The position numbers and the translations under genes were made by a program. This document shows, in pieces, positions 3,501 through 62,352 of a DNA stretch of 64,000 nucleotides; the first letter of the stretch is position 1, and every line of letters starts with the position of its first letter. This DNA comes from Pycnococcus provasolii (taxonomy: Eukaryota; Chlorophyta; Pseudoscourfieldiophyceae; Pseudoscourfieldiales; Pycnococcaceae), in assembly GCA_938743325.2 (NCBI GenBank), contig OW568894.1, positions 372,001 through 436,000 on the forward strand, given 5' to 3'. The notes beneath the pieces are model-generated. The model did not search any database. It was not told where the DNA came from and was given only the letters and a program-made list of their open reading frames with translations.

Positions 3501-3577
3501 ACCCGAACCCGAACCCTAACCCTAACCGTAACCCTAATCCTAACCCTAACCCTAACCCTAACTCCTAACCCCGAACC
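3501..3577. promoter_or_regulatory. Interstitial telomere-like CCCTAA tract between divergent genes
   Basis: About a dozen units of the CCCTAA/CCCGAA type in direct succession, some imperfect. It lies 107 bp upstream of the TAF11 start and 160 bp upstream of the tautomerase start, so it may be part of a shared promoter. In plants, short telomere motifs (telo-boxes) are established promoter elements. That role here is inference. Confidence 0.7.
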
Positions 3578-3736
3578 AATCCCTGCGCAAAATCAATCGC
3601 CCTTTTTAAAAACCAAACCCCGAATCATGAGGATCCTCGACCATTTTCCCCGACTACAGTATGTAGGTCCCTTTTGCTTTTGTGGATAAGGACTTCGAAG
3701 ATATTTTTATTTGTGGAAAATAATACAGTACGCGAA

Positions 3737-4240
3737 ATGCCGTTCGTGAACATAGCTTGGTTGCCCAAGTCTGTCCGCGCTGACCCGCAAGTGCGACGGG
3801 CTGTCGCGCGTGCGGTCATTAACGCGCTCGTCGCGTCACCCGCAGAAGTCGACGCGTCGAAAGTTGTCGTACGTCATGTTTACTGTATTTTTTTTTTTGG
3901 ATTTGATTTTATTGATGTTATTGATGTTTTATTGATTTTATTCGTGTTCTTTCTCACGTGTGCATGTGGATTTCTTTCTCATTTTGTGCACGTGGTTTGA
4001 ATAGATACATGTTTGTGGCCCGTGTCGTGTGATGGGATACGGTATCGTGTGATGCCTTCACACGTCAACATTTCTAACAGTCAGCCCATCTCTCTTCACA
4101 CACAATACGCGCGTTCCACGTTCGAATACAATACACTTGCATTCGTATCGTAACAGGTGCGATTCAGCGAGGCGGTTGACGGCTTCCCGCTTCCAGCGGG
4201 GCATACGGACGACTCGACGAAAGATGTCAAGCTCGACTAA
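3737..4240 (+). CDS. 4-oxalocrotonate tautomerase-family protein, two exons
   Basis: Exon 1 is 3737-3868 (44 codons) and exon 2 is 4157-4240 (27 codons plus stop). The intron, 3869-4156 (288 bp, T-rich), begins GTACGT, ends AACAG and is in phase 0. The product is 71 residues, the size of small tautomerase subunits. It starts M-PFVNIAWLPK, so removal of Met would expose the catalytic Pro-1 that defines this superfamily. The helix at residues 15-32 and strand VVVRFSEA at 43-50 fit the beta-alpha-beta fold. These enzymes catalyse keto-enol tautomerisation of 2-oxo acids and act as oligomers. An in-frame ATG at 3674 exists, but starting there would bury the proline. The substrate is unknown. Without splicing the frame runs into intron sequence, which earlier gene callers could miss. 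Confidence 0.7.
3869..4156 (+). other. Spliceosomal intron of the tautomerase gene
   Basis: Donor GTACGT and acceptor TAACAG, with T-rich runs in the first 100 bases and lower GC than the flanking exons. Joining the flanks gives an uninterrupted conserved strand (KVV/VRFSEA). Confidence 0.7.
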
Positions 4241-4488
4241 CATGAGCTATACTTGTGCTAAGTTCGCTCACTCAGTAACGTAAGAGAAGTTGACTTTGTC
4301 CAGCGCCACATATGCCGACGTTGTCTTTTTACGATAGGGAGGTGGCGCATATCCCGCGCGCAAGCAAACTGGTGCACGAGGTTATTATCAAAAGAAGATA
4401 AGCGTAATATTACAGCGCGAATTATTCAAAGAAAATTCGCACGACTCCAACAGCACGATTGCCGTGCAATGAATAAAAAATCGTGTTT

Positions 4489-7400
4489 TTAAGCCTTCAA
4501 GTAGAACACCCACGTCGCCGTCGTTTGCGCCTCACAGCTCACAATCAGCTTCGCGTCGCTCGCCTTGCCTTCCTGAGCGGTGTACTTGACCGCGACATCG
4601 ATCGTCCGTTTTGCAGCCAACGTTTGCGTGCGATCCACCACGAAGCACGGGTTGTCACACACGAACGTGAACACCGCCTCCGCGGGGAAGACGTTCTTGA
4701 ACTTGAACGTGCCAGCACCGCCCTTGATTTCCACCGGCCCTTGAGGTTTCGGTGGAACGCAACGTCCGCTCACGGGGCAAACGAACGTGCCCGCGGTGGG
4801 GTGGCTGACAGTCAGCACGTCGCGGAAGTTCTCGCCGAGACGCGTTGGCTCGAACGCAATCTCCACCTCTTGCTCGACAGCCTGCTCGTAGCGTTGCGCC
4901 ATCGTCGCATCCTCTAGCTGAGCCACCACCGCGGTCACCTCCGCTTCGCTCTCAAAGTCGTTGCCCGTCTCAAACTGGCACGAGTACGTCGCCTTCTCGT
5001 CCAAGAAGTGGTTAAACCTGAAGTAAGACACCGCCCGCTGTCCCAACGGAACGTTGAACGTCAATGCCCTCTCCATACCAGCCATCGTGCCACTCAGCAC
5101 GAGATCCCACTCGAACACGCCAAGCTCGTCGCAGCTCAATGTCAGCTTAGCATCCTCCTTACCGACGACGAGCGGGCGGTACACAAGCTCGACGTCCGAA
5201 GACTCGCCCGCCTTGACAACAACAGAGCCGGCAGCGTCTGCGACGCGTACACGAGCATTGTCGCAGCTCGTCTTGAGCGTGACATCCTTGCTGAGAGGAT
5301 TCGCGACGCGAACCATTCGTGTGATGCGCTGGCGAACGGCACCTTCCAGCTGCACCGTTCCACGAGACGACGGAGGTCCCGCGGTGAATGAAACCTCGTA
5401 CCACATATATTCGCCCGTCTTCTCGTTCAGGAATGTCACGCGAGCAGACATCGTGCCCTCGCGGTGCATGAGCGCGTGCAGGCGATACACACGCTCGGAG
5501 TGCGCGGGCACGTCGAGCGCGGGCGGTCCCGTGAGCGAGAATGCCTCGTCCACCTCGCTCAGCATCTCGATCTTCGCCAAGAAGCGCTGCGCACGCGGCA
5601 GCCAGTTCGCCACGCTCAAAATCTCCGTGTGATCCTCCTTGGCCACGAGCTCTTTCGATACTGAGCCGCTGCTTGGAGGTTCGCCCGCCGTGCCCTGGAG
5701 GCGGTACAAGCGTCCGCTGCCATCCGGCAGCGGGAAAAACACCGACCCTTCGTGCATGCCACCCTCGCGCGTCATCGCCGTGGGTTGGAATGTGAGCTCG
5801 TACGTCGCGGAACCGCCCGCGGCAACCTGCAAGAGCTCGGAACCCTTCCAGAAATCGTTCGTGATCACCGGCTTCAGCTGCCAGGCAGTCTGCGTGTCGT
5901 TCTGCAGCGTGATGGATTTCGTGTCCGTGCCCCGCACGGGCGTCGAGAACGAAACCACCTCTTCGAGAGGCTCCACGGTGGTGCACGAGCCGCTGAGCGT
6001 AACGCGCATTTCCCCGCCACCCTCGACATGGCACGTCACGCGCTCGGCACGCGCGTCGGATCCGGAAATCGATGCGTCGGGGTGGAACACCACGTCGATC
6101 TTCACCTCCTGGCCCGCGCCGAGAAAACCCTCCGCAGGCGTGAGCGAGAAGTGCGGTCCAAGCGCCGCGAGATCCCACGAAAACTTCGCATCCACGTCGC
6201 CCGTGTTCTCGATGGAAAGGCGCTTTGTGAGCTGGCTTCCCAAAACCACGTGACCGAAATTCAACGACTCGGCGTTGAGCTTCAGTTCCGTTCCGATGCA
6301 AGCGCCTCGCACGCTGAACAAAGTCATTTCCACACCCTGCACGGTGACCGGAATCTCCTCGTCGAATGGCCGCATGCGACCCGACGGCCTGTACGTCAGG
6401 TTGATCGTTGTCGTCTCGCGGCCGCGCAGGTAGATGTTTCCATGCGGCACCACGCTGATGCCGTACTGCGCAAGCGTGGGCATGGCCAAGTCGAGGCTGA
6501 GCGTCGCGGGAACGCGCGAGCGGTTCGTGATCTTCACAACCTTGAGGCTGTCGTTGTTCGCGCGCAGGCTTCCAAAGTTCACGTTCTTCGACACGGAGTC
6601 GGCGAGTTCCACCGCGAGCGGGGTTCCTTCGCCCGTGACGGTGACAGGGATCGTGTACAGACCCTGGATCTCGAACGATATTGTCTCGCGATACGACGTT
6701 GCATCCTGCGGCATGAAGCGCACGTTGATGTTCGTCGATTCCCCGGGACCGAGAACTGTCGGTCCGCTGTTCAGCTCCAAGTATGGAGTGTTCAAGAAGC
6801 TGCAGTCGAAGTTGACATCGATCGAGTCTTCGTTCGTGATCGTCAGCGTCGTCTCGTTTGCGCTCATGCCCTTCTGCTGGATGAAGCATGCGCCGAACGC
6901 ATAGCTCGTCCACGAGAAGGCGAGCTTCGGCTTGTGGCCCGCGCCGCTCAGGTTGAGGGTGTACTTGTGGCCGTTCTCGATCTGACAAGTAACGCGGTAA
7001 TTCTCGAGATTCTCCGGCGTGTACGGGTTGTACGACAGCTCGCAGTTCATGCGTTCGCCCGTTCCCACGGTGCCAGTCATGGGCGATACCGAGATGCGAG
7101 GGTTCGGACCACAGTCGAACGCGTACGTGAAGGCGACGTTGCCGCGGTTGATGATCGACATCTTTTTCACCGATCGGTCGCGGACAATCACAGAGCCAAA
7201 GTCCACGTCGTTGGATCCTGGTGCGAGTTCCATAGCATTGCCGTCAGAACCCACAATCTGGATCGTCTCGTGGATCGAGTATCCTTCGCCCTTGACGTTC
7301 AACGTGAGCGGCAAGGGCTTCTTGCGCACGTTGCACACGACATTAAAGTTTATGGGTGCCTCCTGGTTTGGTGCGAACGTCGTGACAATCGGGAAGCGCG

Positions 7401-10400
7401 TGTTGGGCGCCACCGTGCCCGAGCTCGGTTCGAACGCAATTTGAGGCTTTCGTCCCATCATGGCAATGCGCGCATCGGATGCCTCGTACGTCGCTTTGTC
7501 GAAATTGAATGAGAAGGGCGTGGCCTCGTTGTTGCAGATGTAGATCGTCTCGCGACCCCGCGCGCCGAGTAGGACGCGGTCGAACTGGATCGCCGCACGG
7601 TCGAACACCAGACTCGGCTCGTTCACCGTGCCGACGAGAAGGAACGGCACCGTGATGTTCTGCCCGAGAATGGTGAACGTCCAGAAGCTCTCGGCGACAC
7701 CATCCGGCTCGTTGCCCGTGGGGAAGAAGCTGAAGCTCATCTCGTACTTGCGACCGCCCTCGATGCGACCCTGGCGATTGTTGCAAGTGAACGCGGAGCT
7801 GCCCTCCGCACTCTCGTTCATCGGCGTCCACAAAAAGTCGAACGCGATAGACGTGGGATTCAGGGCGAGGAAGCGAACCACGTTGCGCACCTTCGTTCCA
7901 AGGCTGTCGAACTCGATCACTCGCGTCTCCGGCGCAAGCGTGCCAACAACACCCTCCGGGCCAGGAAGCGCAGGGTTGCGCCGGCCCGTGGCTATGTAGT
8001 CAGACTCCTGCAGCTCGAAGTGGCACCACGGACGCGTTGCGCGGCCTGACAGCTGGATCGACAAAGGCTGGAAGCTGCCATCCAAATCTGGAATGTCGAT
8101 GTGGAGCGTACGATCGCACGATTCCACCTCAGTGGGGGCGAAGCGAAGCGATAGCACCGCCGTCTCGCCACTCGCCAGCTCTCCCGTCGATGGCGTGATC
8201 ACGTACGGGCCATCGTCGGGCTCGATACGAATGGAGTAGCTCATCTTGCTGCCAGATGTGTTCTTCAGCGGCAGCGAGTGAAGTCGCGTTTGGTACATCA
8301 TCGTCGGTCGGAAGTTGATCGGCGTTTCGGGGCACTCGTAGCGCGCATTGTCCGCAATTGCAAATACCTTGATCGAAATGGTGCGCGAAGCATCCTTCTC
8401 TTCGCCCTCGCCTTCCACCACCTCATACTCGGGCTCGGGCTCCGCTTCTGCCGTTGCCGTTACCGCCTCCGACTCGTCGCCACCAGCGTCCTCCCCGGGT
8501 GTCTCAGCATCACCGCCGTCCTCCGTGCCGGCGTACGTCACGCGCCTTGGGCGGTCGTCCCAGTCAGCCACGGCGTCGGCAATTTCGACCGCAGTGTACT
8601 TGATCTGAGCGAGCTGAATCGCCACCTCAACCCCGTCGTGCGTAACGGCGTCCTCGATCGGCGCAAACACGGCGGTAATCGCCTTCGTGGCACCCGCCTT
8701 GATGTGACCCACTCGCGGCACAAAGGTGACGTCGCCCATTGTGTCCGCACCTCCCTCGGCGGGAAACTCGAAGCGCACTGGTGTGCTGGCGTTGTTGCGC
8801 AGGACGAAGCCAACTTCGCGACGCTTACCCACGGGTCCGTCAGAAAAGTGCAGCTCGTCGTCGTAGCCATCCGGAAGATCTTCGAATGTCACCAGCTCCG
8901 TGTAGCACGTGGCATTCAAAACCAGACGCTGCGTCTCGTAGCGGTTGTACTGAACGAGCATTTTGACGTCCGCCGTGTAGTCGCCGAGTGCCGCGGGTGA
9001 GAACTCCACCGGAACGATATGTGCCCTCTTCGGCTCGAGAGTGATAGGAACGCCATTCTCGCCCAGGCTGAAGTCCTTGTTAGGGCGCATGTTCATTCGG
9101 AATGTCGCGGGAACGATTCCATTATTCTTGAGGTGGATGGATCGAGTAACCTTTTTGCCCTGCAGCAGACGAGGGAAGCTGAGCGCGAGTGCTCCATCTT
9201 CCGTGAACTCCGTCGGCTGCTCGATCGTGATCGTGGGAAGTGTGCCCTCTCCATGAACCTCGCAGGTAAATGACTTGGTGCGCGGATCGGCACCGTTGTC
9301 CACGACGGCCTCGAACAAACCAACATAAGATTGGATCGTTGTGGGCAAGAAGCGAAGCGTGACGTACCTCGTCTCCTGCGGCGGAATCTCCCAGCTCGCT
9401 GGCGTGACGGTGATCGGAAACTCCGCCGGGGGGTCATCCATCTTGGGAGACACTGAGAAGTTCACCGTGCAATTCACCTTCTGCGTATTTGAGATCTTCA
9501 GGTTGGCGACGAGGCCGCCCTGGTCGTCACCCTCACCGGAGTCAGCCTTGTTCGTAACCGCAATCGTGGGCCCAAATGAGAACGCTTTCTCACGCATCGC
9601 GTAGACGCGCTCCATGGGATTAAACGGATCGAGCGCCTGCACGATACGGTGCTCCTCGAAGATAGAATTCACGTCCGTGCAATTGACACCGGGAACGCAT
9701 GAGTCACCCATGATTTCGTAAGGCATTCCACCGGGTGAGTCCGCGGGGTCGCGGTCCGCAACGTTGATCCCAAGAATCTCTGCGTACGAGCGATCGTTCT
9801 CCGCGGCGAAGATCACCTCGAAGGTCTCCGACTCGCCCGGCGCAATGGTTCCCTTGAACGGCTTGACAGTGAACTGCCCCACGACAAGCGCGTTCGGATC
9901 CGCATTCTTGTCCGGCACCTTCTCCTCCTCGCCTTCTTTCTTCTCCTTCGCACCGTAGTCGCTGAGGTCATACTCAAAATCGAACTCGCCCGTGTTCGCA
10001 ATGGTGAATGAGCGTGGTGCGGAGGTGGTATTGTACACGTGAGGACCGAAGACTATTCCGCGTTGCGGGCGCACCGTGTACGTCGCAAACACGGCGCGTA
10101 GATCGATGCGAATCGGTATGCGATCCTCTTTCTTCTGCGTGAGCGGCTCCCAGAGCTCAAGGACGGTGTCGGTGTTGGCTGCAAGAGAAACGGTTCGCTT
10201 CAGCGTGTGCTCCTTGTTGAAGTGCACAGTGATCGTTTCGCTGACACCCGGCTCGATTGACCCTTCGATAGGAGATATTGTGAACAGCTCCTTCGCCACG
10301 TGTGTCTTTTGGTGAAACTTGTAGTCGATCGTGTACTTGCCAGTGTTTGTCACGACCAACTCGCGCGCCTCGTCGTTGACCGCCTTAACGACGCCGAAAT

Positions 10401-13400
10401 CGATTCCGGATGGTTTCTCGCCGTCCTTTTCATCCCCGAACGAAACGTCCACCTCGATCAGGTACGCTTCCGCGGTCACTGGCACCTCGATGGTCTGCGC
10501 AACATCCTGCAGCTCATCGACGTCGACGATTTCAATCGTGAGCTTATGCGCAAGCTCTGTCTTCTCCTCCGCGGTGAAGGTGAAGGTTACCTCGTGCTCG
10601 CCCAGGGCGGCAATCTCGCCCTCGGTTTCGGAAATGCTGAGAGTCGTCAGGCCCTCGTCAATGCCCGTAATGCGCCACTTCGCTGGCAGGAGGCATGTGT
10701 TCCTGATCGTGATGGTGCGCGTGTCCGTGTGTCCAACGAGGATTCGCTGGAACACCACCGATCCTTCCTGGCCCTCTTCGGTGCTGAGACCGTCAATCTC
10801 GACGCGAGGCTTCGCGCCGTAGCAGTTGACGGGAAACTCAACCGTCGTGGGATTGTGCTCCACCGTGCACACTACGGCATCCGAGACCGGTCCTTCCTGT
10901 GAAGGGAACGCGTACACCGTCAAATCCTTCGTCTCGTCAATTGCGAGCATGAGTTCCTCAGGTTCCACCGAGAAGACGCCTGCAGGGTGCACATCGCCCT
11001 CGGGCAACTCGACGTCGTCGGGGAGGCCCTTCATCGCGAAGTTCACCTTCAGCTCAAACAGCCCGTTATTTGTGATGCGGAAGCGCGACGTTTCAGCGGG
11101 ATTCGGATCCACCTCCTCCTCGCCCTCCTCAACAGGTTTCTTCTCAAGCTTCGTCTTGCCACACAGCAGCGGACCAAACTCGAACCGATTGCGCGGAATA
11201 ACGTATTGCTTAGACACAAGCGCCGCGCCGAGCTTCGTGCGCGTTCTTCGGTAGAACGCATTTCGGAAGTCGTCGTTGATCTGAGGGTACGCGCAGCGAC
11301 CCTCGAGCGTGAAATTCTCTCTCACTCCGTCTGACCCGCCAATCTCAAAGCCAAGTTGCTCGCTGTTTGTGCCCACCTCCGGCGACGAAAATCGCACGAG
11401 AATGTGCACGCGTCCCCCGACGGGGATCACCCAGCGCGTCTGCGTGGAAAGCTCAATCTCCTCCACCTCCCCACCTTCAGGTTCGGGGGCTTTCTTCTCA
11501 CCTCCGTCGGCGACACCATCCGCGGCACTATCGTCACCCTCCATGCCATCTGCCGCCATGTGTGTTTGCGGTGGCGTCAGGATTGTGAAGTGTGTCACCG
11601 GCATGCGCGAATCGCGCTGCTTGGGACGATAAATGATTGCCTTGGGAACCATCGGTGGAATCGGCGGTTCCTCCGCCAGAACCAACGGGAAGCCATACTT
11701 CGAGCCGAGCTCCTTCGGGCCGCCGCGCACATTCGCGTACATTTCCTCCTCGGTCGATCCTTCGACGTCTTCTACCTGAATTAGACGCGCGGACGCGATC
11801 GGTGCAGCGTGTTCGCCGATCCAAGTAAGAACCGATTCGACGATATTCGCGTGCTTGTCGAACGCAGCCTGGCTCTCTTCGGTGAGAGTCGGCGGCGGTG
11901 GCTCCTCCGTCTCTGCTCCCTCCTCAGCCTCACCTTCCGCATTCTCTGTTTCTTCCTGCTCAGGGGGCTCTTCACCCGCGGCAGCAGCAGCCTCGGCCGC
12001 TGCTGCAGCCTCCGCAGCAGCCTTTTCCTTGAGAAGGATGTCCTCCCGACGCGCAGCCTCCTCGGCGCTGATTTGTGCGCTAATAACAAACAGGCGTTTC
12101 GGTCCGCTGCGAACATACTTCTTCTCCGTTTCTTCTTCCTCATTGGCAGCCTCTTCCGCCTCCTCGTCTGTTTCTGCCTTCTCAGGCTCAATCTCAGATT
12201 TTGTCAAGCTCAGTGCTGCCGCATACGCGTCGAGTACAGTTGCCGTGTCAGCGTAGGTACAGGCCAGGCCATTGAGAATTGTACCTCCAGCTGCCATCTT
12301 CCATCCAGGCGGATTCGTCTCGCCCACGTTTTGCGCAAGGCAAGCTTTCTGGCCAAGCCAACACTGGAAAATTTCGGTGAGCAATTCGGCGCCAAGGGTT
12401 CCAGGTGTCGTCTCTTCACCCTCTGTGTTCACATCATCATCGCCCTTCCAGCCGGTAGCTTCCTTGACACGCTCAAAAAGTGGCGCCGCAGTTTCCGGTG
12501 ATTCCGCTTCCCCTTCACCTGCAGCTTCAGCATTCTCGCCATCGCCTTCCTCGCCCGAAGCTGCGGGGGTAATATCGATAGTCTCAACTTCCGGCGGAAC
12601 CACCTCTTGCCTCATGATGGCAAGAATAACCTCATCCGGTGTTGCCGTACGAACGTTGTACCGCTCACCAATGGTTGTCGCGAGAGCTGAAGCGCGCGAA
12701 AATGGGCCACCGAGAACTAGAGCGTTCAGAGAGTCGTCGTGAAGCATCTCCATCTCTACTGCCTGCTCGAGCTCGCCAACTTCCTCGCCAACTTCACGTG
12801 CCTCGGCGTTTTCGGCAGTGGTCTCATCGCCGCCCTCTTCAGCCTTCTCACCCTCCGTTGGCTCTGCTTCATCCGCACCATCTGCCTCGGCGTTTTCTGC
12901 CGCCGCCGCCGCCGCCGCCGCTGCCGCTTCTTCCTCGGCCTTGAGTCGTCGCAATCTCTGCTTGTTAGCAATTGCAACTTCAGCCCAAATTTCCTCCCCA
13001 GGTTGGCGAGGGTCGAACAGAATCTCTTTGGCGTCATCAAACGCATCGTAATGGCGCAGCATCTCCTCCTCCTCGAGGTATCGCTTATCCGTATCCAGGC
13101 AGAATACCTCGATGGGCTTCTCTGAGGTGTTGACCATGAAAAAACGTGCCTCATTTGGCTTGAGCGGAAGCTCTGGCTCCCCCGTTTCCTCGTTGGTGCG
13201 TCCAGGCTCGCCGGGAAGGATTGCGCCAAGATTAAGCACGGGTGGATCGAATGAGATGCCAAGCTGATGCATCGTGCCCTGTGCCACGACTTGGACTGGT
13301 TTTGGATTGTTCAATATTTTGATTGGGATGCGTTGCCTATACGCCTCTTTTTCGACGCTTGGTGTGAAGCAGATCTGAACGTCAAACTTTTGGCCGGGTT

Positions 13401-16400
13401 GCAGCGTTCCTCGCTCGGGAATCGCCTGGAAATAGTCCCAGTCGCGATTGTTCTCCATCGGCTTTTTCACAGACCAGTCTGCGGCGACGTTTTTCTTGTT
13501 GTGCATGCGCACGGTAATCACCTGTTTGTGCCCCACCTGCACACTTCCGAAGTCGAGACGTTCTTCCGAAAGCACAAGCTCAGGCATCTCGACTACTGCT
13601 TTGATCGTCAGCATGGCACTCGGACCGCCTCGCAGCTCTACTGGGCATTCAATCTGCGTTGGCCCGAGCTCCACCGCGGAGGAGTTGAATGTCAGCGTTG
13701 CATCCACGATTTCGTTCTCTGGAAGCTTACCGACCGTTTCGGGGTCAAGCGTCATGCCATACTGCGCGAGAATGTGCTTGTCCGCAATGATCGTTAGCGG
13801 ATCCTTGCTGGTATTTTGCATGCGGAAGCGGCGCTGCTTCTGCGTACCCCTGCACACGTATCCAAAATCAACCACGTATCTGCTGAGAACAGTGTGCTCC
13901 TCCGGAAGTTTGCGCCTCCGCCTCGGATCGTCCTTCTTACTCTTTGGCTTACCCGTCACGGTGATCGGATCAATGCCTGCCGCGATTGCCTCGGCCACCT
14001 TAATCTGCGTCTCCTTCTTCACGTCGATCGCCTCGCGCTCTTTGCCAAGCAGAAAGTTGCAAAGGTGCACGCGATCCGCCTCCTCCTCCAGCTCATGCTG
14101 TGTGTACGCGTGCGGGCCCTTCGCAAGATTCAGCTCCGAGCGCGGCGCGCGAGACATCGCCGTGTCCATTCGCGTGTCCGACGTGCGCCCACGGGACATA
14201 GGCATTCGACTCCTGGAAGTGCCCGCAGTGTTGGGGGGCTTTCGCGGCCCAATCTCCGCGAGGATCACACTAGCCTGCTCTAGTGCGAGGCGGTACGCGT
14301 CGTCAAATATGCGAGGCAGGCTCAGCACCACGCTTGGGTGAGTTGCCTGGCACTTGATACGCACCTTTGTTGGCTCGAAGTGCGCCACCTCAATCAGGAA
14401 GGCATCGTCCAGCTTATCCGGGATGACTCCAGAGATTTTCAACTTGAGCGATTCCTTTGACCCGGCGCCAACGCGGCCTCCAAAGTTGGAGCAGTCCACA
14501 ACCACGGACTTCCGCTCAAGCACGTCGAGATTGACGCGGAATTCAAACGGAACCTTGCCAGAGTTGTGGATCACGACGTCACGTTCTACGGTGCGATTGT
14601 ACGGCATGTCGTGAAGCGCCACAACCTGGGGGTCCACGGAGAACTTGATCACACTCGATTCCGCATTCAGCTCCGTCTCGTACGTTGGCCCTCCTTCGAC
14701 TTCGCAGACGGCTAGCGCAGACAGCTTCACCTGTGGAAGCGCGAAGTAGCTGTACTCAAATGTCTCAGTCTCGCCAGGTTTGAGAGTTCCTCGAATGGGG
14801 AGAATATCAAAAGCCTGGTTGGATTTCAGCTTGCGCCGACCATCACCATTGGAGTCATCGACGAATCCCCAGTCGTAGACAGCGTCGACGATCGAAACAT
14901 TCTTCACCATGCAGTACATACGCTTCGTTGTGTCATTCAGTACACTTCCAAAATTAATAATCTGATGGTCAAACGATAGGTTGGGGTAGTGCACTTCGCC
15001 CATAAGCTCAACGGAGTCCTTCTGAGGATTGTCCGAGTACGTGATTCCAATCTTGGCCGGAAATTTCATCGTCAGGCGGTCGCCGCGGCAGTTGGGATCG
15101 AACGTCACGGTCGTTGTTCCCGTCTCATCCGGGAGCAGCGACCACTCGGTGCGATCGACTATAAACGGGTTGCCCGGCTTCATAGTGAACGTGAGAGGAA
15201 GCTTCGAAACGTTGCGAACCGTCAGCGGCTGGTGCTGAATTTCCGGCGGGAAGGTCTCGGGTGTGTATTGGTAATAAAAGGCAATGCGGTTGCTCGAGAA
15301 TTCGAGGAGTGGACGCGCAACGTCGGAGTGCACGTTCACGTCGAACACGGTCTTCGTATTCTTGCCGATGGCGGACTTGCAGTTGAGAATTTCGTGCACG
15401 AGGCCAGGATCCGTCACAAAGCCAGAGATGACAAACGCGCACGATGTCTTCGGCGCCATCGTAACCTTCGTGGGATAGATGCTGAAGTTGTGCTCATTCT
15501 CCACTTCTTTCTTGTCCTTCTTGTCCCCCGTGCGGCTCTTCGACGTGCCTGGTCTCTTAGTCGTGTTCGACCACGTAAGCGTCTGTGTTCTTCTGCCGTA
15601 GTTGTGCAGGATGTACTCGCGCTCAAAGCCGCGGTTGGTGAATTGAGGCCCAAAGTCGACGATCGACGTTTCGTGCGGTGGCCAGTGCTCGCACGTCACG
15701 GTGCTGCCGATGCCTACTGAAGAAAGCGGAATTGCGGAGTCGTCGCCCTCCATCACGAGGATGTTGAGAACATCCGTGAAGTTGATGGTGTCATCAAGAT
15801 AGCAGCTCACGGTGAGTGTCATGCTGTCGGCGGGCATCAGCTTCGCCTCGCGAACATCCACCTCGTACACGCTTGCCTCCTTGCGTTGTGTGCCCGTGAT
15901 GTACGTTTTAAACTCTGCGGGAATTAGGCTCGCATTTGTCACCGTCACCTGTCGTTGATGTTTCTTCAGCACCTCCAGCTTGCCGTAGTCAATCGCAGGC
16001 GACGTCGTTGGCACCATCTCGCCAGAGGATGACTCCACAGCATACGTCAGAACCGCGCCGATGCTCGTGGCTGCAATCGTCACCTCCATAGGGTCGTCGC
16101 TCGAGCCCACAATCTGCACCTTGGCCAGCAGGTGAATTTTTCCCAGGCGCATCGTAGCGAGGCTGAACTCAATCTCAGCCTCCGACTTGGCTGCGATAGT
16201 TCCCTCGAGCACCGCGGCGGTGTACACGCCAAGTCCCTCGCTCTGCTCGTCTTGAGGAAGAACGCGGTACTTTGCCGGAAGCTTACTTTCATTCACAAGC
16301 CTGAATGTGCGCGTGTACGGGTGCCTTAGGAAGCAGTCGCCAAAGTCGAGCGTGTCCGTGACGATGGACACCTTGGGGATGCAGCAATCAGCAGTCAGCG

Positions 16401-21482: not shown

Positions 21483-22220
21483 TTACAAGTCGCCATTGCC
21501 ATCTTTGGTACTGAAATTCCGTCGCCACCACTCTCGTGGCCACCTCGTGAGCGCCGACTCCGCCTTCATGCGCGGTCTGTCCCTGTCATCCAAGAACGGG
21601 TTCGTCGGTGGATTGAGCAGACCGTCCGGCCTTCCTCCGACGAACGCGACAGGTCGCCTAACTTCTTCCCTTCCGCTACTCATCATGCCGACGGCGATAA
21701 CCGCGACAGGTATTGTCATCGCGACGGCTACGCCTGCTGCGGACGGCGCGCCTGCTCTGTTCGTAGCGACTCTGGGATGTTTCCTCCTCACAGATGCGTG
21801 TGCCGTGCTGTACGTTGAAGCTTGAGCACCTTGAGCGCTTCCATAGCGTTCGCCACCACTTCTTCTCAGTTTCCCGTGCGCTTTGATGGTTTCATATGCG
21901 TCCGCGACTCTTCTGAATTTCTCCTCGGCTAAACGCGCTTCTGTGGCTAAAAGTCCAGAATCACAAGCAGACTTCAAACCTGCCGAAGAACCTGCAGATG
22001 CCGATGATGCCGATGATGCCGATGCTGCCGATGAAGATGCAGATGCACTACTCTTATTAACGAGCACAGCATCCGGGTGTGTTTGCTTGACCATGTAGAG
22101 GTACGCGTCGTGGATATGCTTGTGCGAGTAAGAGGTGTGCGGACATAAATGCAGTGTCCTAAAAGCGTCATCAAGCACCGAGCCTGATGAGGGACCATGA
22201 CCAGAGGGTGGCGTGGCCAT
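21483..22220 (-). CDS. J-domain (DnaJ-like) protein with one membrane segment
   Basis: 245 residues from the ATG at 22220; the frame continues upstream only through a TTG. Residues 14-115 form a J domain: helix I (LDDAFRTLHL), helix II (HIHDAYLYMVKQ) and the diagnostic HPD at 48-50. A 40-residue Ser/Ala insertion follows before helices III (EEKFRRVADAYETI) and IV. A hydrophobic segment at about 160-180 (AAGVAVAMTIPVAVIAVGMM) suggests a single-pass membrane anchor. J proteins stimulate the ATPase of Hsp70 partners through HPD. The long insertion between helices II and III is unusual and coincides with a GATGCC/GAT trinucleotide repeat at 21995-22060. Compartment unknown; mitochondrion or ER are candidates. 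Confidence 0.8.
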   Translation of the reverse strand: MATPPSGHGPSSGSVLDDAFRTLHLCPHTSYSHKHIHDAYLYMVKQTHPDAVLVNKSSASASSSAASASSASSASAGSSAGLKSACDSGLLATEARLAEEKFRRVADAYETIKAHGKLRRSGGERYGSAQGAQASTYSTAHASVRRKHPRVATNRAGAPSAAGVAVAMTIPVAVIAVGMMSSGREEVRRPVAFVGGRPDGLLNPPTNPFLDDRDRPRMKAESALTRWPREWWRRNFSTKDGNGDL

Positions 22221-22317: not shown

Positions 22318-22340
22318 TTGGGTTAGGGTTTAGGGTTAGA
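22318..22340. promoter_or_regulatory. Telomere-like TTAGGG tract upstream of the J-domain gene
   Basis: Three units of GGGTTAG/GGGTTTAG type, 98 bp upstream of the J-domain start codon. It mixes TTAGGG and TTTAGGG spacing. A promoter role is inferred from the repeated position of such tracts in this window. Confidence 0.55.
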
Positions 22341-22440: not shown

Positions 22441-23463
22441 TCAACGAGTCATGAACCGCGTGCCGTTCAGCTCACCTAAGCGCAACGCATCGGTAGGTGC
22501 CTGGCCGCTATAGTTATCACCCCAGCACGCGACGCTCCCGTCGGCTCGCAGTGCCAGAGAGTGTCTGTTGCCCGCGGCGACCGCTACGAAGTCGCCATCC
22601 ACGCCGGCGGGAGGCGCTTGGCCGGCGTTGTTCCATCCCCAGCACGCGACGCTCCCGTCGGCTCGCACTGCCAACGAGTGTTGGGTGCCCGCGGCGACCG
22701 CTACAAAGTCGCCCTCCACGCCAGCGGGAGGCGCCTGGCCGTGGTTGTTCCGTCCCCAACACGCGACGCTCCCGTCGGCTCGCAGTGCCAACGAGTGTTG
22801 GGTGCCCGCGGCGACCGCTACGAAGTCGCCCTCCACGCCAGCGGGAGGCGCCTGGCCGTGGTTGTTCCGTCCCCAGCATGCGACGCTCCCGTCGGCTCGC
22901 AATGCCAACGAGTAATCGAAGCCAGCAGCGACCGCTACGAAGTCGCCCTCCACACCAGCGGGAGGCGCTTGGTCATTATCGTTATCACCCCAGCACGCGA
23001 CGCTCCCGTCGGCTCGCACTGCCAACGAGTGACTGTAACCCGCGGCGACCGCTACGAAGTCGCCCTCCACGCCGCCGGGAGGCGCTTTGCCGAAGTGGTT
23101 ATCACCCCAGCACGCGACGCTCCCGTCGGCTCGCAGTGCCAACGAGTAATCGAAGCCCGCGGCGACCGCTACGAAGTCGCCCTCCACACCAGCGGGAGGC
23201 GCTTCGCCATTATCGTTATCACCCCAGCACGCGACGCTTCCGTCGGCTCGCAATGCCAACGAGTGACTGTGACCCGCACTAATCACGGCGTTTGCCCTCG
23301 CGCGCCGAATGCGCCTCTCTTGAACGGCGGCGAGTCGCCGCGGCCTGTGCACGGTGACGAGCCAGTCGAGCCATACGGCGATGGCTTTGTCCTTCAGGCT
23401 CAGCAGCAGGTGGTGGTTGTGTGACGCTGACGCTGACGCTGGTGGGACATTCTTCATGTGCAT
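22441..23463 (-). CDS. RCC1-type beta-propeller repeat protein
   Basis: 340 residues from the ATG at 23463. After a 65-residue basic, helical N-terminus come seven tandem repeats of 39 residues. Each reads about SLALRADGSVACWG then DNxxGxAPPAGVEGDFVAVAAG. The W-G-x-N and internal G-x-x-x-S-L-A-L spacing is the RCC1 pattern, and seven blades would close one propeller. The last copy is shortened and diverges after APT. RCC1 folds serve as guanine-nucleotide exchange factors or as protein-binding scaffolds; nothing here identifies Ran exchange activity. Repeats are almost identical at DNA level (117-bp period), indicating recent unit duplication. The opposite-strand frame is a mirror artefact of this repeat. 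Confidence 0.85.
   Translation of the reverse strand: MHMKNVPPASASASHNHHLLLSLKDKAIAVWLDWLVTVHRPRRLAAVQERRIRRARANAVISAGHSHSLALRADGSVACWGDNDNGEAPPAGVEGDFVAVAAGFDYSLALRADGSVACWGDNHFGKAPPGGVEGDFVAVAAGYSHSLAVRADGSVACWGDNDNDQAPPAGVEGDFVAVAAGFDYSLALRADGSVACWGRNNHGQAPPAGVEGDFVAVAAGTQHSLALRADGSVACWGRNNHGQAPPAGVEGDFVAVAAGTQHSLAVRADGSVACWGWNNAGQAPPAGVDGDFVAVAAGNRHSLALRADGSVACWGDNYSGQAPTDALRLGELNGTRFMTR
22500..23280. repeat. 117-bp tandem repeat encoding the RCC1 units
   Basis: Roughly 6.7 copies of a 117-bp coding unit with strong conservation of GACGCTCCCGTCGGCTCGCA on the + strand in every copy. The adjacent copies near 22690-22800 and 22810-22900 are almost identical, pointing to recent unequal exchange. 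Confidence 0.85.
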
Positions 23464-23596
23464 GCACGGTGACGTTCATGCGATGCTGACCAGTAGGGTT
23501 GGGAGCGCGAGGCAGGCGCCAGCGGAGGCGGAACCAAACCCGAATCGCCGCTGGGCAAGTTTTCTTCATCCCCTCGGGCCTCGGAAACCCGAACTT

Positions 23597-23620
23597 CCCC
23601 TAACCCGCCTTTAACCCTAA
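23597..23620. promoter_or_regulatory. Degenerate telomere-like motif upstream of the RCC1-repeat gene
   Basis: CCCCTAACCC and AACCCTAA separated by six bases, about 135 bp upstream of the RCC1-protein start codon. Short and degenerate, so weaker than the tracts at 3501 and 62247. Confidence 0.4.
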
Positions 23621-23625
23621 AGGTT

Positions 23626-25754: not shown

Positions 25755-25795
25755 AACGCCTACGAAACCAACCCCGAATTGTAACATATATGCCA

Positions 25796-25886
25796 AACCC
25801 CTAACCTTATCATGCAAGGACGGTAACCCCTAACTAAGAAAACGCGAACCCCTAATTAACTTCCTGGGGGGTCTAACCCCTAACTG
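25796..25886. promoter_or_regulatory. Scattered telomere-like ACCCCTAA motifs
   Basis: Four copies of ACCCCTAA (near 25796, 25827, 25851 and 25876) spaced about 25-30 bp, ending 164 bp upstream of the next start codon. Unlike the tracts at 3501 and 62247, the copies are separated by unique sequence. Confidence 0.45.
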
Positions 25887-39157: not shown

Positions 39158-39364
39158 TTTGAAAAAAATGGGTGAAAATTGTGAACGTCATGGGGGATGC
39201 CTGTGGACCGGGTGGGTGTTCGTTGGTGAATTCGAAAAAGAGTTGCATGTGTAGTTTAGTTAGGGCTTTCATTTGCAAGTCTCAGAACACCGAACTGACG
39301 TCGTTAAGGCCGCCGTTCACCTGTGCAAACCTTGTGTATTCCAGAGTTTTTCTCGGGATAGAAC
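39156..39364 (-). repeat. Right terminal inverted repeat
   Basis: 209 bp, the reverse complement of 37144-37356 apart from a 4-bp gap and very few mismatches. The TA at 39365-39366 follows. Confidence 0.88.
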
Positions 39365-43547: not shown

Positions 43548-44795
43548 ATGGCGTCCACCTCAGCAGGTGTTGTACCACGCCGCACGTCGTCGTCGTTGTC
43601 AGGAGCCGGCAGCACTAGTAGTAGTAGCATTTCTAATTCTAATACTACTCGTCGTGGTATTGGTGGTGTCGTCCACCGCCGCCGACGCACGACAAGCGGC
43701 AGCAGCTACAACAACTTTGCCCACCACCACGATAGCAGGAATCGCGCTTACATGGTTCCCCTGATGACGCCATCCACGACGACAGACACGAATGCTGCTG
43801 TAGTGGTTGTAGACCCTCCTCCTCCGGCTCATCATCATGCTGCTGCCGAACCAAAATCACAATCAGCATCGGCAGGAGGAGGATGGGTGCGTGTCATCCA
43901 GCAGCAAGCGAATCGACAGCAGCAGCAGCAGCAGCAACGATACAACGACAACACGGCAATGACAGCAATCACGACCGCCGACCCGATCATGCAAAGTGAC
44001 ACGTACGCAGAGGCGCTCAGGCAGCTCAAGCAGCTCGAGGAAACCGCCGTGCGTGCGAAGAACTACGCCGTCGCGGCTCGTGTGCAGACTGCCACGCAGG
44101 CAATCGAAACTATCACCGCACAGCTGTCGGAGATTTCCAGGCTGGAAGGGACGGCGGTACGCGAACGTGACTACGCCGCGGCTGAGCAGTACCGACACCA
44201 CGAGGCGGCTCTGCTTCACGACCTCGACGCGAACCTCAACTGGGACTTCTGGGCGCACGACGCACCCGCCGCTCAAACGACGCAAAGCCAGTTCGACCCG
44301 AACTCGTCGTCGGCGCCCTTCACGGGTGCAGGCACAACGGCGACGCAGGCGGCGCGGCTCGTTCCCGTGCGCTTCTCTGTCGCGTGCGAAACTGCGTTCG
44401 GCGACTCCGTCGTTCTCGTCGGATCCGCGCCGCAGCTGGGTGCGTGGAGCTTGCACAGCACGATCCCGATGACGTTCGTCGCGGGCGAGACGTGGACGTG
44501 CGAGTGCGTGCTTCCCGCAGGTTTGGAGTTCGAGTTCAAGTTCATTCAACGCAAGGATCACGACACGGAGTTTGTCGATCCGATGTGGCAAGAGGGCGAG
44601 AACTTCGTCGGCTCGATTCCCGTCGACGACGACGTGCGCACGGTGGACATGCGATGCACGTGGGGTGCCGACGGCGACGCCGCGACGCAAGAGAGCGAAA
44701 GTCGCGGCGGCGTGTCTGGCGGGAACTTGGTATGGATCTGTCGATCTCTGCGGCGGCGCGAGAAGAAGGTTTCACAGAAGACAATCTCGGGCTGA
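43548..44795 (+). CDS. CBM20 starch-binding protein with UVR-like helices, copy B
   Basis: 415 residues. The first 145 residues are unrelated to copy A: Ser/Arg/His-rich, then HHHAAAEPKSQ and a Gln tract (encoded by CAG repeats at 43918-43936), again suggesting organelle targeting. From DPIMQSDTYAEALRQLKQLE onward the protein is nearly identical to copy A. It has two UVR-like hairpins and a CBM20 with LGAW, ETWTCE, FKFIQR and MWQEGENF. An extra Asn-Ser-Ser occurs just before the CBM20. The C-terminal ends differ again (SLRRREKKVSQKTISG). Starch or glucan binding is known for CBM20; the biological role is inference. Third of three same-strand genes. Confidence 0.82.
   Translation: MASTSAGVVPRRTSSSLSGAGSTSSSSISNSNTTRRGIGGVVHRRRRTTSGSSYNNFAHHHDSRNRAYMVPLMTPSTTTDTNAAVVVVDPPPPAHHHAAAEPKSQSASAGGGWVRVIQQQANRQQQQQQQRYNDNTAMTAITTADPIMQSDTYAEALRQLKQLEETAVRAKNYAVAARVQTATQAIETITAQLSEISRLEGTAVRERDYAAAEQYRHHEAALLHDLDANLNWDFWAHDAPAAQTTQSQFDPNSSSAPFTGAGTTATQAARLVPVRFSVACETAFGDSVVLVGSAPQLGAWSLHSTIPMTFVAGETWTCECVLPAGLEFEFKFIQRKDHDTEFVDPMWQEGENFVGSIPVDDDVRTVDMRCTWGADGDAATQESESRGGVSGGNLVWICRSLRRREKKVSQKTISG
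43978..44709 (+). repeat. Segmental duplication, copy B
   Basis: 732 bp matching 40151-40873, about 99 percent by eye, with a 9-bp insertion. Synonymous sites are also conserved, implying recent duplication or gene conversion. Confidence 0.9.
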
Positions 44796-46473: not shown

Positions 46474-46508
<35 letters not shown>

Positions 46509-47831: not shown

Positions 47832-47964
47832 CCAACCCCCAAACCAAACCCCCAAAAACCAAACCAAACCAAACCAAACCCCCAAAACCAAACCCCCAAC
47901 CAAACCCCCAACCAAACCAAACCAAACCCCCAAAACCCAAACCCCCAACCCAACCCAACCAAAC
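47832..47964. repeat. G-free C/A-rich tract
   Basis: About 130 bases composed of C and A only on the + strand, built from AAACC, AACCCCC and AAAACC blocks. The other strand is G/T-only with many GGGGG runs. Confidence 0.8.
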
Positions 47965-49066: not shown

Positions 49067-52000
49067 ATGTCCGCGGACGACGACGACGATGATGCCCTGG
49101 CGCAAAAAAAGGCAGCCACCTACATCGAAGCGCACTGGCGCGGGAGGCGCGTGCGCGCGGCGTTCAAGTCCGCAATGGTTCAGAAACGAAAACACCACGG
49201 TCTGGCCAGACGCGAATTTCTCATGTTCAACGCACAGAAATACTGGAAGAAATCCGGCTTGGCCATGCACACTATCGAGCACATCACCAACCTGGTACGA
49301 AAGAGGAGTTTCGACGCAAAGCAACGGAAGTTCGAGAATAAGCTTTCGAAGCAGCAGGATGGCTCCACAATTACGCACACCGTCGACGACGAGGAGGCGC
49401 TCATGGATCTCGACTACAGACACCAAGGTGACGCCGACGCGTACACCGCGGAGGCGCTGCTGACACGTCAAGCGCTTCGCAAAGACCCGGAGATATGCAA
49501 GGGCATACGAAAGTGGTGGGACACATTCGACGTCGAGGAGCCCAAGGACACGATGAGCATACACGACTACGCGCACATGCACTTCCTGCTGGACATCTCG
49601 ATGCACGAAATGGGATTCAATCTCCCCGACGATCAGCTGCTCGCGGATGTGCTCGAGGACTGGGCGGAGGACTGCATGGGCGCCCCGACAATGACGTACC
49701 ATGCGTTTGAGGAAGCCATCTTCGAGCTCACCGACCTTTGGACCTACACAACAGAACGGCGCGAGTACGTCAACTTTCTCAAAGACACTCTTGAAAAAGC
49801 TCTCCATATCACGGACAACAAACCCAAACTCGAAAAACGATTAGAAAGATTGGAGTCTAAGGCGGCGATGTTAATCAGAGGTAAAATTGGCGGTGCCATT
49901 GGCTCTGCAAAAAATCCCGCGACGGTGGCGAGCGGATCGACGCTGGACGTGTCGAGCACAGCGGCCGCGACAGTGGCGAGCGGATCGACGCTCAACGTGT
50001 CGAGCACAGCGGCCGCGACAGTGACGAGCGGATCGACGCTCGGCGTGACAGTGGCGACCGACGCGACGGTATCTGCGGGCGGCGACGTGTCAAGGACGAG
50101 CACGGGCAAGACGACCGTGACGTCGACCGGCTCCGACATCTCCGTGTCGGCGCCGAGCGCAGACGCGAAGGTGTCGATCACGTCCAGCGGCTCGACGACG
50201 GTGACGAGCGGCGACGACGTCGACGTTATCGCGGAGGACGCGGTGACAATCACGTCAGGCGAGGGCGGCATGCGTCTGCAGTCGACTGGCCAGCTGGCCG
50301 CGTCGTGTAACGGCGCGATGCAGCTGAGCAGCACGACCGGACCGATGTCCCTGAGCACGGGCGCGGGCGGCGCGTCGCTGGTGTCGCTCGGCGCAGTCCT
50401 CGTGGACGCTGACGGCTCTGGCACAGGCGGCCTCGAGGTCCGCGCCGGCGCATCGGGCGTGGACGTGGACGCGGCCAGCGCCGCGACGGTGACGAGCGAT
50501 GCGTCGGTGAGCATGACGAGCGCGGCATTTACGACGGTGGCGAGCGGATCGACGCTGGACGTGTCGAGCACAGCGGCCGCGACAGTGACGAGCGGATCGA
50601 CGCTCGGCGTGTCGAGCACAGCGGCCGCGACAGTGACGAGCGGATCGACGCTCGGCGTGACAGTGGCGACCGACGCGACGGTATCTGCGGGCGGCGACGT
50701 GTCAATGACGAGCACGGGCAAGACGACCGTGACGTCGACCGGCTCCGACATCTCCGTGTCGGCGCCGAGCGCAGACGCGAAGGTGTCGATCACGTCCAGC
50801 GGCTCGACGACGGTGACGAGCGGCGACGACGTCGACGTTATCGCGGAGGACGCGGTGACAATCACGTCAGGCGAGGGCGGCATGCGTCTGCAGTCGACTG
50901 GCCAGCTGGCCGCGTCGTGTAACGGCGCGATGCAGCTGAGCAGCACGACCGGACCGATGTCCCTGAGCACGGGCGCGGGCGGCGCGTCGCTAAGGCCAAC
51001 AGCTCAGGCCAACTCGGCTCTTGGCTCAGTCGGTGGCAACGGGTCGGGCCGACTCGGCTCAGGTCAATTCGGGGATCGCAATGGCTCGGGCCAACTCCAC
51101 ACGGTCTTATTGACATTACCGCAGTCAACACAACAGGGTCGGCACTTCTTGCGAGCCCCAGGCCAACTTCCTGCGGTGACAGAGCATGAGTATTCCGGGG
51201 CTTCACGATCGCCGCTGGCACATGAGAATACGCATACTTCGGTTTCTCATCCGCAGTCAACACAGCAGGGTCGACACTTCTTGCGAGCCCCAGGCCAACT
51301 TCCTGCGGTGACAGAGCATGAGTATTCCGGGGCTTCACGATCGCCGCTGGCACATGAGAATACGCATACTTCGGTTTCTCATCAACAAGACGACCGGCGT
51401 TGGAAGATCACATACTTGCCTAATTTTGGATACACTCGCCCCGGTCCATACTACCGTACGACCTTAGCATTCGATTCATCTAGTTCGCACACGCAGCCGT
51501 CACATATGAGAGGGCCCCGAGCGAATGGTCTTAAGAGGGTGCCTCGCGAGCTGAGCGACCGTGACGAAGACTACGGCGATCACCTGAAACCATCTGATGA
51601 TCCTCCTCGAAGAGTGGTTAGCGCTGCGATGACCCGGCCATCCGCCGTACCAAAGCTGCCTGAACTTTCCACGATACACGACGAGCAAGCTAATAAGACG
51701 TCACTCGAAAAGCCTACATCTGTATCGGCGCGCTTCAGCTTTGAGATTAAGCTTCCACCAGCGCGTGGTGCGATAAGCGCGCCACAGCAAAGCGCGCGGC
51801 AGCAAAGCGCGCGGCAGCATAGCGCGCGGCAGCATCTGGCAGCATCCGGCGGCTCCGGCTACAGCCTAGCTCAGCAGAGGATTCAAAGTGCACGAGGGAG
51901 AGAGGTGGCCATGCCGCCATCTTCTCGACACGTGGCGTTGCAGACGGTGAATGAGAGCAGCAAGGAGCCCAACTCGCATCTATTGCTATTCGAGGATCTG

Positions 52001-59689: not shown

Positions 59690-60655
59690 CTTGATTGCGA
59701 GTGAGAGTGAGCTCCTGCTATACTTTCAGCAGCCCGCACGCACGGAAGTCAGCAGGTGCGAAATTGCGAAACCCTTGAGCACACACACACCTACCTACCT
59801 GCAAGGCAGCAAGGGACAGCAGATATGATGATGCTAACCTTAACAACACAGTACTGCAACTACTAATAACGCAGGTTGGTGAAGAATTAAGATGCACCAC
59901 CACCGCCTGAAAAAAGAAAAGAAAGGATGGCACACACACTGCCGGCACACTGAAGGCACACTGAAGGCACAGGCGCACACCACGCACACCACGCACCGCA
60001 CGCACGCAGTTAATGATGAGGCACCAATGTTCCCGGTGCCCAAGAGAGAGATCAGAGAAGAGGGGGAAACGCCCACGTGCGAGGGGCCGAGGGAGAGCCG
60101 AGGTGCTGTGGTGATGTCAGTGGGGAAGGCGACCAAATACTGTGGGCCGGACGATGAGACTTCTTCGGGAAGAAGACGAATCAAATGGATCAAATTTTTT
60201 AATTTGTTGGCTTCGAAGTTCCGTTCACCTGTTCCGTTCCGTTCAGCCTGTCATCTCGAAGGAGGTGCTCGAAGGAGGTCGTGGATCCTCGCGAAGACAA
60301 AGATGCTTGCAGGAAGGTGTTTCAGGAGGGTTTTGCCTTGAAACTTGAAACGTTTTCACACTGGCACACTCTCACATCACGTAAGAATAGTTCTTATTGA
60401 TGATTGCCACCTCTCTCTCTCTCCTCACTCCAGCTTTGATTTGAACAGTTGAAAGCGGATTTGAACAGTTGCCCCACCTTGCAGCCTTGGCAAAGGTCCT
60501 TGGCAACCTCGCTCGCCCCTCGTGAATCCCTCTCCCTCTCAGACGCAGACTCAGAGTCGGAGTCGGAGGTTGTGCAGCTTGAAGCTTGAAAAGGCCGCGT
60601 CAGGTTTCAGGTTTCACAAGCCGCTTCCTCCCTAGTTCTACCTCAGCAAAACACC
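59690..60655. other. Divergent intergenic region
   Basis: No gene is seen. It has CACACTGAAGGCACACTGAA and CACGCACACCACGCACC repeats at 59930-60006, and a CAGACTCAGAGTCGGAGTCGG run at 60547-60567 upstream of the Tubby-like gene. Confidence 0.5.
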
Positions 60656-62080
60656 ATGGCGTACAACCCTTTCGTTGGGAATACTATGGCGCCGGTTCCT
60701 AGGTCGAAGGCGCGTGCGTTTGCGTCGGCGTCTTTCGACTCCGACTCCGACTCCGAAGACTCCTCCTCCTTCCCAACCGCACAACACGGTGGTTCTGCTG
60801 GCGGGTTTCGCGGCTCGAGTGCTTATGGGGGGGCCACAGCAGCCAGGCCAGGTCTAGGTGGCGCTAGCCAGGGCTTGGTGGGGGCGAACCTTGTGCCCGT
60901 CGGCGCCTCCGGGGCGGCCGTTGAGCGGCCGCAGCCGCTCGTCAACGCCGCGCGAACGCGACGCGGATTCTCCGCCGTGCTTGACGAGGAGGCGGAGATC
61001 GCCGCGGGAGGATCGTTCGGACTCTCGCCCACGAACAGCAACGAAAACGGAAAGGCACCCATCGTGTACGATGCCGTGCCGGCGTACGGCGTGCCGCGCG
61101 GCTTTCAGCCAGTGCAGACACCTCGGGCACTGAAAGCGAACATGGCGAGCGCCCAAGACTCCGACGACGACAGCTCGACGTTGTCAACGCCACTGGCCTT
61201 CGGCGGACCGTCGACGAGCGGAAGCACCGCGGCACAGAGGCAAAAGTACCTCGTCACACCCGCAGCACGAGGCCGCATGACGCAGTGCTACGTCACGCGC
61301 GAGCGAGGGTGGGTGGGCCACTTCCCCAAGTTCTGCATGTTCACGAGTGACGGCGACCAGTTCCTGCTGTCCGCAAGAAGGAAGAAGAAGAGCAAGACGT
61401 CGTACTATCTGCTCTCGCTTGACCGCAACGACGTCTCGAAAGGAGAGGACGTGTACTTTGGCAAGCTGCGCAGCAACTACGTCGGAACGGAGTTTGTGCT
61501 ATACGACAACGGAACGAAGGACCCCACGAAGGCGGCGTCGGCAAAGGAGGCTGCGCTCGGCGACAAGGGCAAGGGCGCCGCGGCGCATGGACATCTCATC
61601 CGCGAGATGGCTGCGGTGCGCTTCAAGCAGACGGCGCTTACCGCGAGCGGAGGCCCACGCGCGCTCACGGCCATCCTGCCGCTTGACGACAATACGCGAC
61701 AGCCGCTCGGGGAGGGACGGCAACTAGGAGGCGAGGAGACGCTCGTTGATAGCTACCTCGCATCGAAGAATGGCGTTCCGCGCATGCCAATTGTCGCGTT
61801 GAAGAACAAACGGCCGAAGTACGACGAGCGCATCAAGGCGCACACGCTCGACTTCAACGGCCGCGTGACGGAGGGTAGCACGAAAAATTTCCAGCTGTGC
61901 GCGTCAGGCGTCGATCCGAGCGACTTTGACAAGGACGACGCGGATGGCGCGGTGGTGCTTCAGTTTGGCAAGTGCGGGACGAACACGTTCGCGCTTGACT
62001 TTTCGTGGCCGATGAGTCCGATGCAAGCTTTCGCCATCGCGCTGTCGAGCATTGACACCAAGCTGTGCTACGTGTTGTAG
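60656..62080 (+). CDS. Tubby-like protein (TULP family)
   Basis: 474 residues. The N-terminal 200 residues are Ser/Gly/Asp-rich and disordered, starting MAYNPFVGNTMAPVPRSKAR. The Tubby C-terminal domain spans about 203-474: YLVTPAARGRMTQCYVTRER, SARRKKKSKTSYYLLSLDRN, VYFGKLRSNYVGTEFVLYDN, then the C-terminal helix MQAFAIALSSIDTKLCYVL. The GKLRSN segment carries the Lys and Arg that bind PI(4,5)P2 in mouse tubby. In animals TULP3 uses this site to deliver membrane proteins into cilia; plant TLPs tether to plasma membrane. With HYDIN in the same window a ciliary role is plausible. There is no obvious F-box, unlike land-plant TLPs. Confidence 0.93.
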   Translation: MAYNPFVGNTMAPVPRSKARAFASASFDSDSDSEDSSSFPTAQHGGSAGGFRGSSAYGGATAARPGLGGASQGLVGANLVPVGASGAAVERPQPLVNAARTRRGFSAVLDEEAEIAAGGSFGLSPTNSNENGKAPIVYDAVPAYGVPRGFQPVQTPRALKANMASAQDSDDDSSTLSTPLAFGGPSTSGSTAAQRQKYLVTPAARGRMTQCYVTRERGWVGHFPKFCMFTSDGDQFLLSARRKKKSKTSYYLLSLDRNDVSKGEDVYFGKLRSNYVGTEFVLYDNGTKDPTKAASAKEAALGDKGKGAAAHGHLIREMAAVRFKQTALTASGGPRALTAILPLDDNTRQPLGEGRQLGGEETLVDSYLASKNGVPRMPIVALKNKRPKYDERIKAHTLDFNGRVTEGSTKNFQLCASGVDPSDFDKDDADGAVVLQFGKCGTNTFALDFSWPMSPMQAFAIALSSIDTKLCYVL

Positions 62081-62246
62081 ATACCGTACGTATAGCTCGC
62101 TGAATGTGTTGGTGTTGATTGAGAGCTCTGACTGATGTTACTAAATAATATCTTTTGAAGTTTCCATGAAATCCTATTATACACTGGAAGGAAGATATTT
62201 ATGTAATCGGTACCGGTATGTATGGACATACTATATTCCAACCTTC

Positions 62247-62352
62247 CGTTATGATTAGGGTTTTGATTAGGGCTTTTGATTAGGGCTATGATTAGGGCTA
62301 TGATTAGGGTTATGTTTAGGGTTAGGGTTAGGGTTAGGGTTATGATTAGGGT
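62247..62352. promoter_or_regulatory. Telomere-like TTAGGG tract upstream of FCF2
   Basis: About 12 units of GATTAGGG(C/T)TAT and TTAGGG type; the last three are perfect TTAGGG. It ends 99 bp before the FCF2 start codon. In plants, telo-boxes are established elements of ribosome-biogenesis promoters, and FCF2 is a ribosome-biogenesis gene. Confidence 0.7.

Follow-up and report, generated by a model that had tools for sequence, protein, structure and literature searches.

Gene content of the window

The window, i.e., the whole 64-kb stretch of DNA that was analyzed, is eukaryotic nuclear DNA with a noncoding share of about 24%. A small number of introns, TAF11 and the ciliary HYDIN-like ORF point to a eukaryote with flagella. 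It harbors TAF11, FCF2, a Tubby protein, a BK-type potassium channel and a HYDIN/CFAP65-like ORF (4489-18519), the last with 4676 aa in one exon without introns. TAF11 (2816-3394, minus strand, ATG at 3394) carries a TAFII28 domain (E 6e-22). The J-domain gene (21483-22220, minus strand, ATG at 22220) matches DnaJ with an E-value of 7.5e-5, which is under the Pfam cut-off, and the RCC1-repeat gene (22441-23463, minus strand) is its neighbor. ORF 26050 (26050-29097, plus strand) encodes 1015 aa and has no Pfam match. The pre-rRNA processing factor FCF2 (62451-63347, plus strand; E 1.7e-36) is the only ribosome-biogenesis gene in the 64-kb window, which contains no ribosomal protein gene and no gene for a Tbf1/TRF-like Myb protein.

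Gene starts are ORF-based calls (ATG) and not transcription start sites. A few of these calls are uncertain by some bases, including the 'tautomerase' opposite TAF11 (ATG 3737), whose first exon has no Pfam confirmation, and the syntaxin-like ORF (start 47026); the counts given below are unaffected.

Telomere-motif clusters lie upstream of start codons

Counted on both strands, the 64-kb window has 33 copies of TTAGGG. With a cluster defined as at least two copies and a merging distance of up to 100 bp, these fall into five clusters and nine single copies. All five clusters are noncoding and lie 5' of a start codon, and there is none elsewhere in the window. Measured from the nearest cluster edge, the distance to the start codon is 98 bp for both FCF2 and the J-domain gene, 106 bp for TAF11, 133 bp for the RCC1-repeat gene and 167 bp for ORF 26050. 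The first-pass annotation had reported tracts upstream of TAF11, the J-domain gene and FCF2, which we recovered as claimed (3500-3575, 22318-22337 and 62255-62353), and looser motifs upstream of the RCC1-repeat gene and ORF 26050, which were found as well (23596-23620 and 25796-25883). Its statement that coding sequence is free of comparable tracts also holds: no cluster and just two isolated copies are present there, at 9080 in the HYDIN-like ORF and at 35002 in the potassium channel. Two further single copies (37247 and 39260) belong to a transposon, of which they are the mirror-image ends. The stricter unit TT[AC]GGG(G)TT has 29 matches, 27 of which are inside the five clusters. The number of copies per cluster ranges from 2 to 10 with a spacing of 6-29 bp. 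Orientation relative to the genes is mixed: at TAF11, RCC1 and FCF2 the G-rich strand is the sense strand of the gene, whereas for ORF 26050 and the J-domain gene it is the antisense strand.

An order-3 Markov model, in which coding and noncoding DNA were modelled separately, served as null in 150 trials. It yielded 0.45 TTAGGG clusters on average and never more than 3, compared to the five observed, and a value of 0.007 compared to five for clusters of the stricter unit. Since the 167-170 bp upstream of the starts make up about 27% of the noncoding DNA, an upstream position is not rare in itself for a single cluster. For all five clusters to lie within 167 bp upstream under random noncoding placement, the probability is P = 0.0015; like the other P values given here it refers to one window, our own ORF-based starts and five clusters, which may not be independent since three of them lie within 3.6 kb.

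A scan of all 6-mers ranked GGGTTA and TTAGGG, two registers of the telomere unit, at the top; each of them forms five clusters, all upstream. The next 6-mer, CAAGAA, has five upstream and two elsewhere, with two of its five coming from a tandem array at 23.7-24.6 kb. Other noncoding tandem arrays are located within 167 bp upstream in 6 of 21 cases, which is the background level, versus five of five for the telomeric clusters (Fisher P = 0.007). This confirms the telomere-motif clusters in the promoters as a real and specific observation: they exceed chance and occur only upstream of genes. The association with promoters is therefore supported by the placement statistics, the 6-mer scan and the tandem-array control, but the additional proposal of a general promoter element is not, as at least 16 of about 22 genes have no TTAGGG cluster.

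A fixed spacing of about 100 bp, suggested earlier as a tight range of 98-107 bp, was rejected: given that the clusters are close to the starts, the coincidence of 98, 98 and 106 bp is not significant (P = 0.086). A pyrimidine patch shared downstream of the tracts is not specific, as pyrimidine-rich windows are common to all promoters here.

The five clusters differ in structure

The five clusters are heterogeneous and do not represent one kind of structure. Upstream of TAF11 we found a TTAGGG/TTCGGG tandem tract (3500-3575, minus strand, G-rich strand gene-sense), of which 63 bp are near-perfect, with the TTCGGG variants at one end; a lone TTCGGGGTT copy in the same intergenic region (3616-3624, minus strand) has the orientation of the tract. 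The FCF2 tract (62255-62353, plus strand) comprises ten TTAGGG, four of them in pure hexamer register and the remainder in a 12-bp period, GATTAGGGYTAT. The J-domain cluster is the short sequence GGGTTAGGGTTTAGGGTTAG (22318-22337, plus strand, antisense to the gene), which adjoins CCAACCCCAACCCC; two TTAGGG units stand beside inverted AACCCC repeats.

In contrast to the tandem arrangement at TAF11 and FCF2, the clusters at RCC1 and ORF 26050 are non-tandem. The former consists of four TT[AC]GGG copies (23537-23620, minus strand), 74-157 bp upstream of the RCC1-repeat gene. The latter (25770-25883, minus strand), 167-280 bp upstream of ORF 26050, is composed of TTCGGGGTT and four TTAGGGGTT boxes, which on the plus strand read as one AACCCCGAA and four AACCCCTAA, with spacings of 26, 29, 22 and 28 bp. 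These spacings are not multiples of 6, and the spacers of about 20 bp are mutually unrelated and not telomere-like. Identical AACCCCTAA boxes in unrelated spacers resemble binding sites that have been kept rather than a decayed tandem telomere insert. Within the RCC1 and ORF 26050 clusters the orientation is uniform for 9/9 copies, for which the chance is 1/128 by arithmetic.

The box words also differ, with AAACCCTA in the J-domain and FCF2 clusters only and AACCCTAA/AACCCCTAA/AACCCGAA in the other three. The description of the tracts as far longer than one box applies to TAF11 and FCF2, but not to the other three clusters, with the J-domain cluster having just two TTAGGG.

Gap context of the clusters

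Three clusters sit in tandem gaps and the RCC1 cluster in a divergent gap; the TAF11 gap would be divergent as well, provided that the 'tautomerase' opposite is a real gene. From the ORF 26050 and J-domain clusters it is 42 bp and 104 bp, respectively, to the stop codon of the neighboring gene, which is less than or similar to the distance to their own start. The clusters in tandem gaps may act on the 3' end of the neighboring gene. None of the seven convergent gaps contains a cluster, which is a weak test with a total of only 1995 bp.

Two arrays were noted in divergent gaps. The complex tandem array at 23707-24610 (59/71/175-bp periods) lies between the RCC1-repeat gene and the divergent ORF 24648 and ends 38 bp before the start of the latter. 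A C-rich AACCAAACCCCCA-type array at 47834-47964, with a period that is not telomeric, is in a 2-kb divergent gap, distant from both starts.

Comparison with known telomere-motif promoters

In plants, telo boxes concentrate in 5' flanks. At ribosomal protein genes they are located 0-280 bp from the ATG, and rRNA-processing genes have them too; carriers of a telo box are on the order of 10% of the genes in Arabidopsis and rice (PMC3022908). The comparison with these boxes that was drawn at first pass is apt in this respect. Assignment to the ribosome-biogenesis class fits FCF2 through its function in pre-rRNA processing, but the other four genes are not known for such a role. As for the plant telo box (AAACCCTA; PMC3022908), a telomere-unit motif is found here in the 5' flank near the start (5/5 clusters at 98-167 bp, P = 0.0015). 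The exact AAACCCTA word is present only at the J-domain gene and FCF2. In contrast to the plant element, the repeats are of the six-base TTAGGG type and form clusters of 2-10 copies and tracts of up to 100 bp.

In Saccharomyces cerevisiae, Tbf1 requires a cluster of several TTAGGG for binding but no particular orientation or spacing (PMC2834713), and it helps to keep nucleosomes off some promoters (PMC6410037). The clusters described here resemble the Tbf1 sites of budding yeasts (PMC2834713, PMC6410037) in the clustering of TTAGGG, the free spacing, the occurrence in either orientation to the gene, the promoter position and the exclusion of nucleosomes that is proposed for them. They differ from them in the long near-perfect tandem tracts and in the co-orientation of copies within a cluster, and they are also unlike the Tbf1 site of Candida albicans, which is a strict palindrome. 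Tbf1-type sites are a feature of snoRNA promoters; in the window no Rfam family reached the gathering score, though lineage-specific snoRNAs could escape, and the clusters precede protein genes. Likewise, a search for RNA genes driven from the tracts gave no Rfam or tRNA match.

The Myb-type protein Teb1 binds TTAGGG motifs in many Schizosaccharomyces pombe promoters (PMC5128866). Similar to Teb1 and the AACCCT box (PMC5128866), the motif here is a promoter TTAGGG, and the AACCC(C)TAA core belongs to the same sequence class. The fission-yeast box is 17 bp long and conserved in all core histone promoters; the window contains no histone genes. Finally, like the interstitial telomeric sequences described in PMC7215372 and PMC6410037, the clusters are degenerate (TTAGGG)n of short length at a distance from chromosome ends, but unlike those they are exclusively promoter-proximal here and partly spaced rather than tandem.

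This kind of element is thus already known from plants, budding yeasts and fission yeast, and the long tracts are a variant of it. By analogy, the clusters most likely work like Tbf1 and telo-box promoters. Membership in either class is withheld, because AAACCCTA is found in only 2/5 clusters, the snoRNA link is missing in the window and the binding protein is putative. No earlier account of such promoter clusters in a protist was found in the literature searched, which does not prove that there is none. Finding this design in one more lineage would suggest that telomere-binding Myb proteins were recruited to promoters early or are readily recruited anew. In addition, the long tracts would be a natural system in which to ask whether tandem telomere repeats are by themselves enough to open promoter chromatin.

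Proposed mechanism and alternative explanations

We consider it probable, with some reservation, that the tracts are promoter-proximal homotypic clusters of TTAGGG sites for a putative Myb/SANT 'telobox' factor that opens promoter chromatin. A candidate would be a general regulatory factor of the TRF/Tbf1/TRB/Teb1 type. Such a factor would occupy several TTAGGG copies side by side and keep the occupied stretch free of nucleosomes. The promoter would thereby be open about 100-170 bp before the ATG, and other factors could then activate transcription from there. The long tandem tracts of TAF11 and FCF2 would be the same type of site, expanded by slippage. The binding protein, the exclusion of nucleosomes and the effect on transcription are what we infer from the clusters. 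Nucleosome exclusion is plausible by analogy, as telomere repeats of both human and yeast type are unfavorable to nucleosomes when tested in yeast, including on a minichromosome (PMC3919577; cf. PMC6410037). The mixed orientation to the gene, three sense and two antisense, points to recognition as DNA and makes a signal read in the RNA unlikely. On the other hand, the uniform orientation within the two loose clusters (9/9 copies) is more than recognition of the Tbf1 type would need, which counts against this reading.

Alternatively, the clusters could be interstitial telomeric sequences, in which telomere units were added by telomerase or end-joining at breaks, more commonly in open promoter chromatin, and which have no regulatory role. 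We regard this as rather unlikely, even though the TAF11 tract consists almost entirely of the telomere hexamer, with decay at single positions, and part of the FCF2 tract looks the same. Gaspin et al. suggest that telomerase at promoter breaks seeded the plant telo boxes (PMC3022908), and insertion at breaks is documented in mammals (PMC7215372). However, repair of breaks leaves the spaced AACCCCTAA boxes of ORF 26050, the non-tandem RCC1 cluster and the 12-bp period at FCF2 unexplained, and the lack of clusters in the convergent gaps speaks weakly against it; it could also account for the origin of the tracts and yet leave a function possible. A generic build-up of simple repeats in 5' flanks via slippage or open chromatin, with the telomere motif being incidental, appears improbable. 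Microsatellites and telo boxes do share a 5' bias in plants (PMC3022908) and tandem arrays are numerous in this noncoding DNA, but the other arrays match the 27% background whereas the telomeric ones are all start-proximal, and two of the five clusters are non-tandem.

There is little to suggest a transcriptional or translational effect of G-quadruplexes formed by the G-rich strand, e.g., in the 5' UTR. A relaxed G4 pattern matches the TAF11, FCF2 and RCC1 clusters, all with a gene-sense G-rich strand, but not the antisense clusters of ORF 26050 and the J-domain gene, and it also matches at unrelated sites (18692, 19545, 47817 and 3225). Chance, a subtelomeric position or misassembly is very improbable. 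The sample is small and the feature was picked out of many in the first-pass annotation, but the null models and the scan of all 6-mers speak against chance, and the tracts are spread over gene-dense 64 kb with ordinary genes, from one end through the middle to the other. One could speculate, with considerable doubt, that in this lineage promoters with long telomere-repeat clusters are a standing class for part of the genes and that one protein could serve both chromosome ends and gene switches, which would couple promoter use to telomere state.

Mobile elements and duplications

The region 37138-39370 is a DNA transposon with terminal inverted repeats of about 220 bp that are 97.7% identical. 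It contains a DDE_3-like ORF (37799-39157; weak match, E 0.0015), its ends start with TA, and it is IS630/Tc1-mariner-like. Searches for relatives via FCF2, the transposase and the Tubby proteins in viral contigs, and via the exact 29-bp transposon end in viral and prokaryote contigs, returned none in which conservation of the sites could be seen.

The region 30603-32045 has an ORF of 254 aa without a Pfam match between direct repeats of 173 bp (TGTG...TTACA), which are identical and 1.1 kb apart. The sequence CTTTG on either side could be a 5-bp target duplication, and by its sequence the region resembles an LTR element that is recent, very small and devoid of a polymerase. Furthermore, the segments 40151-40873 and 43978-44709 are a recent duplication with 97.7% identity, coding for a protein with a starch-binding (CBM20) domain; the 5' parts of the ORFs differ. 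Within an ORF that weakly matches DUF2345 (in Pfam, conserved in bacteria), a 460-bp segment is duplicated with 99% identity (49920-50991).
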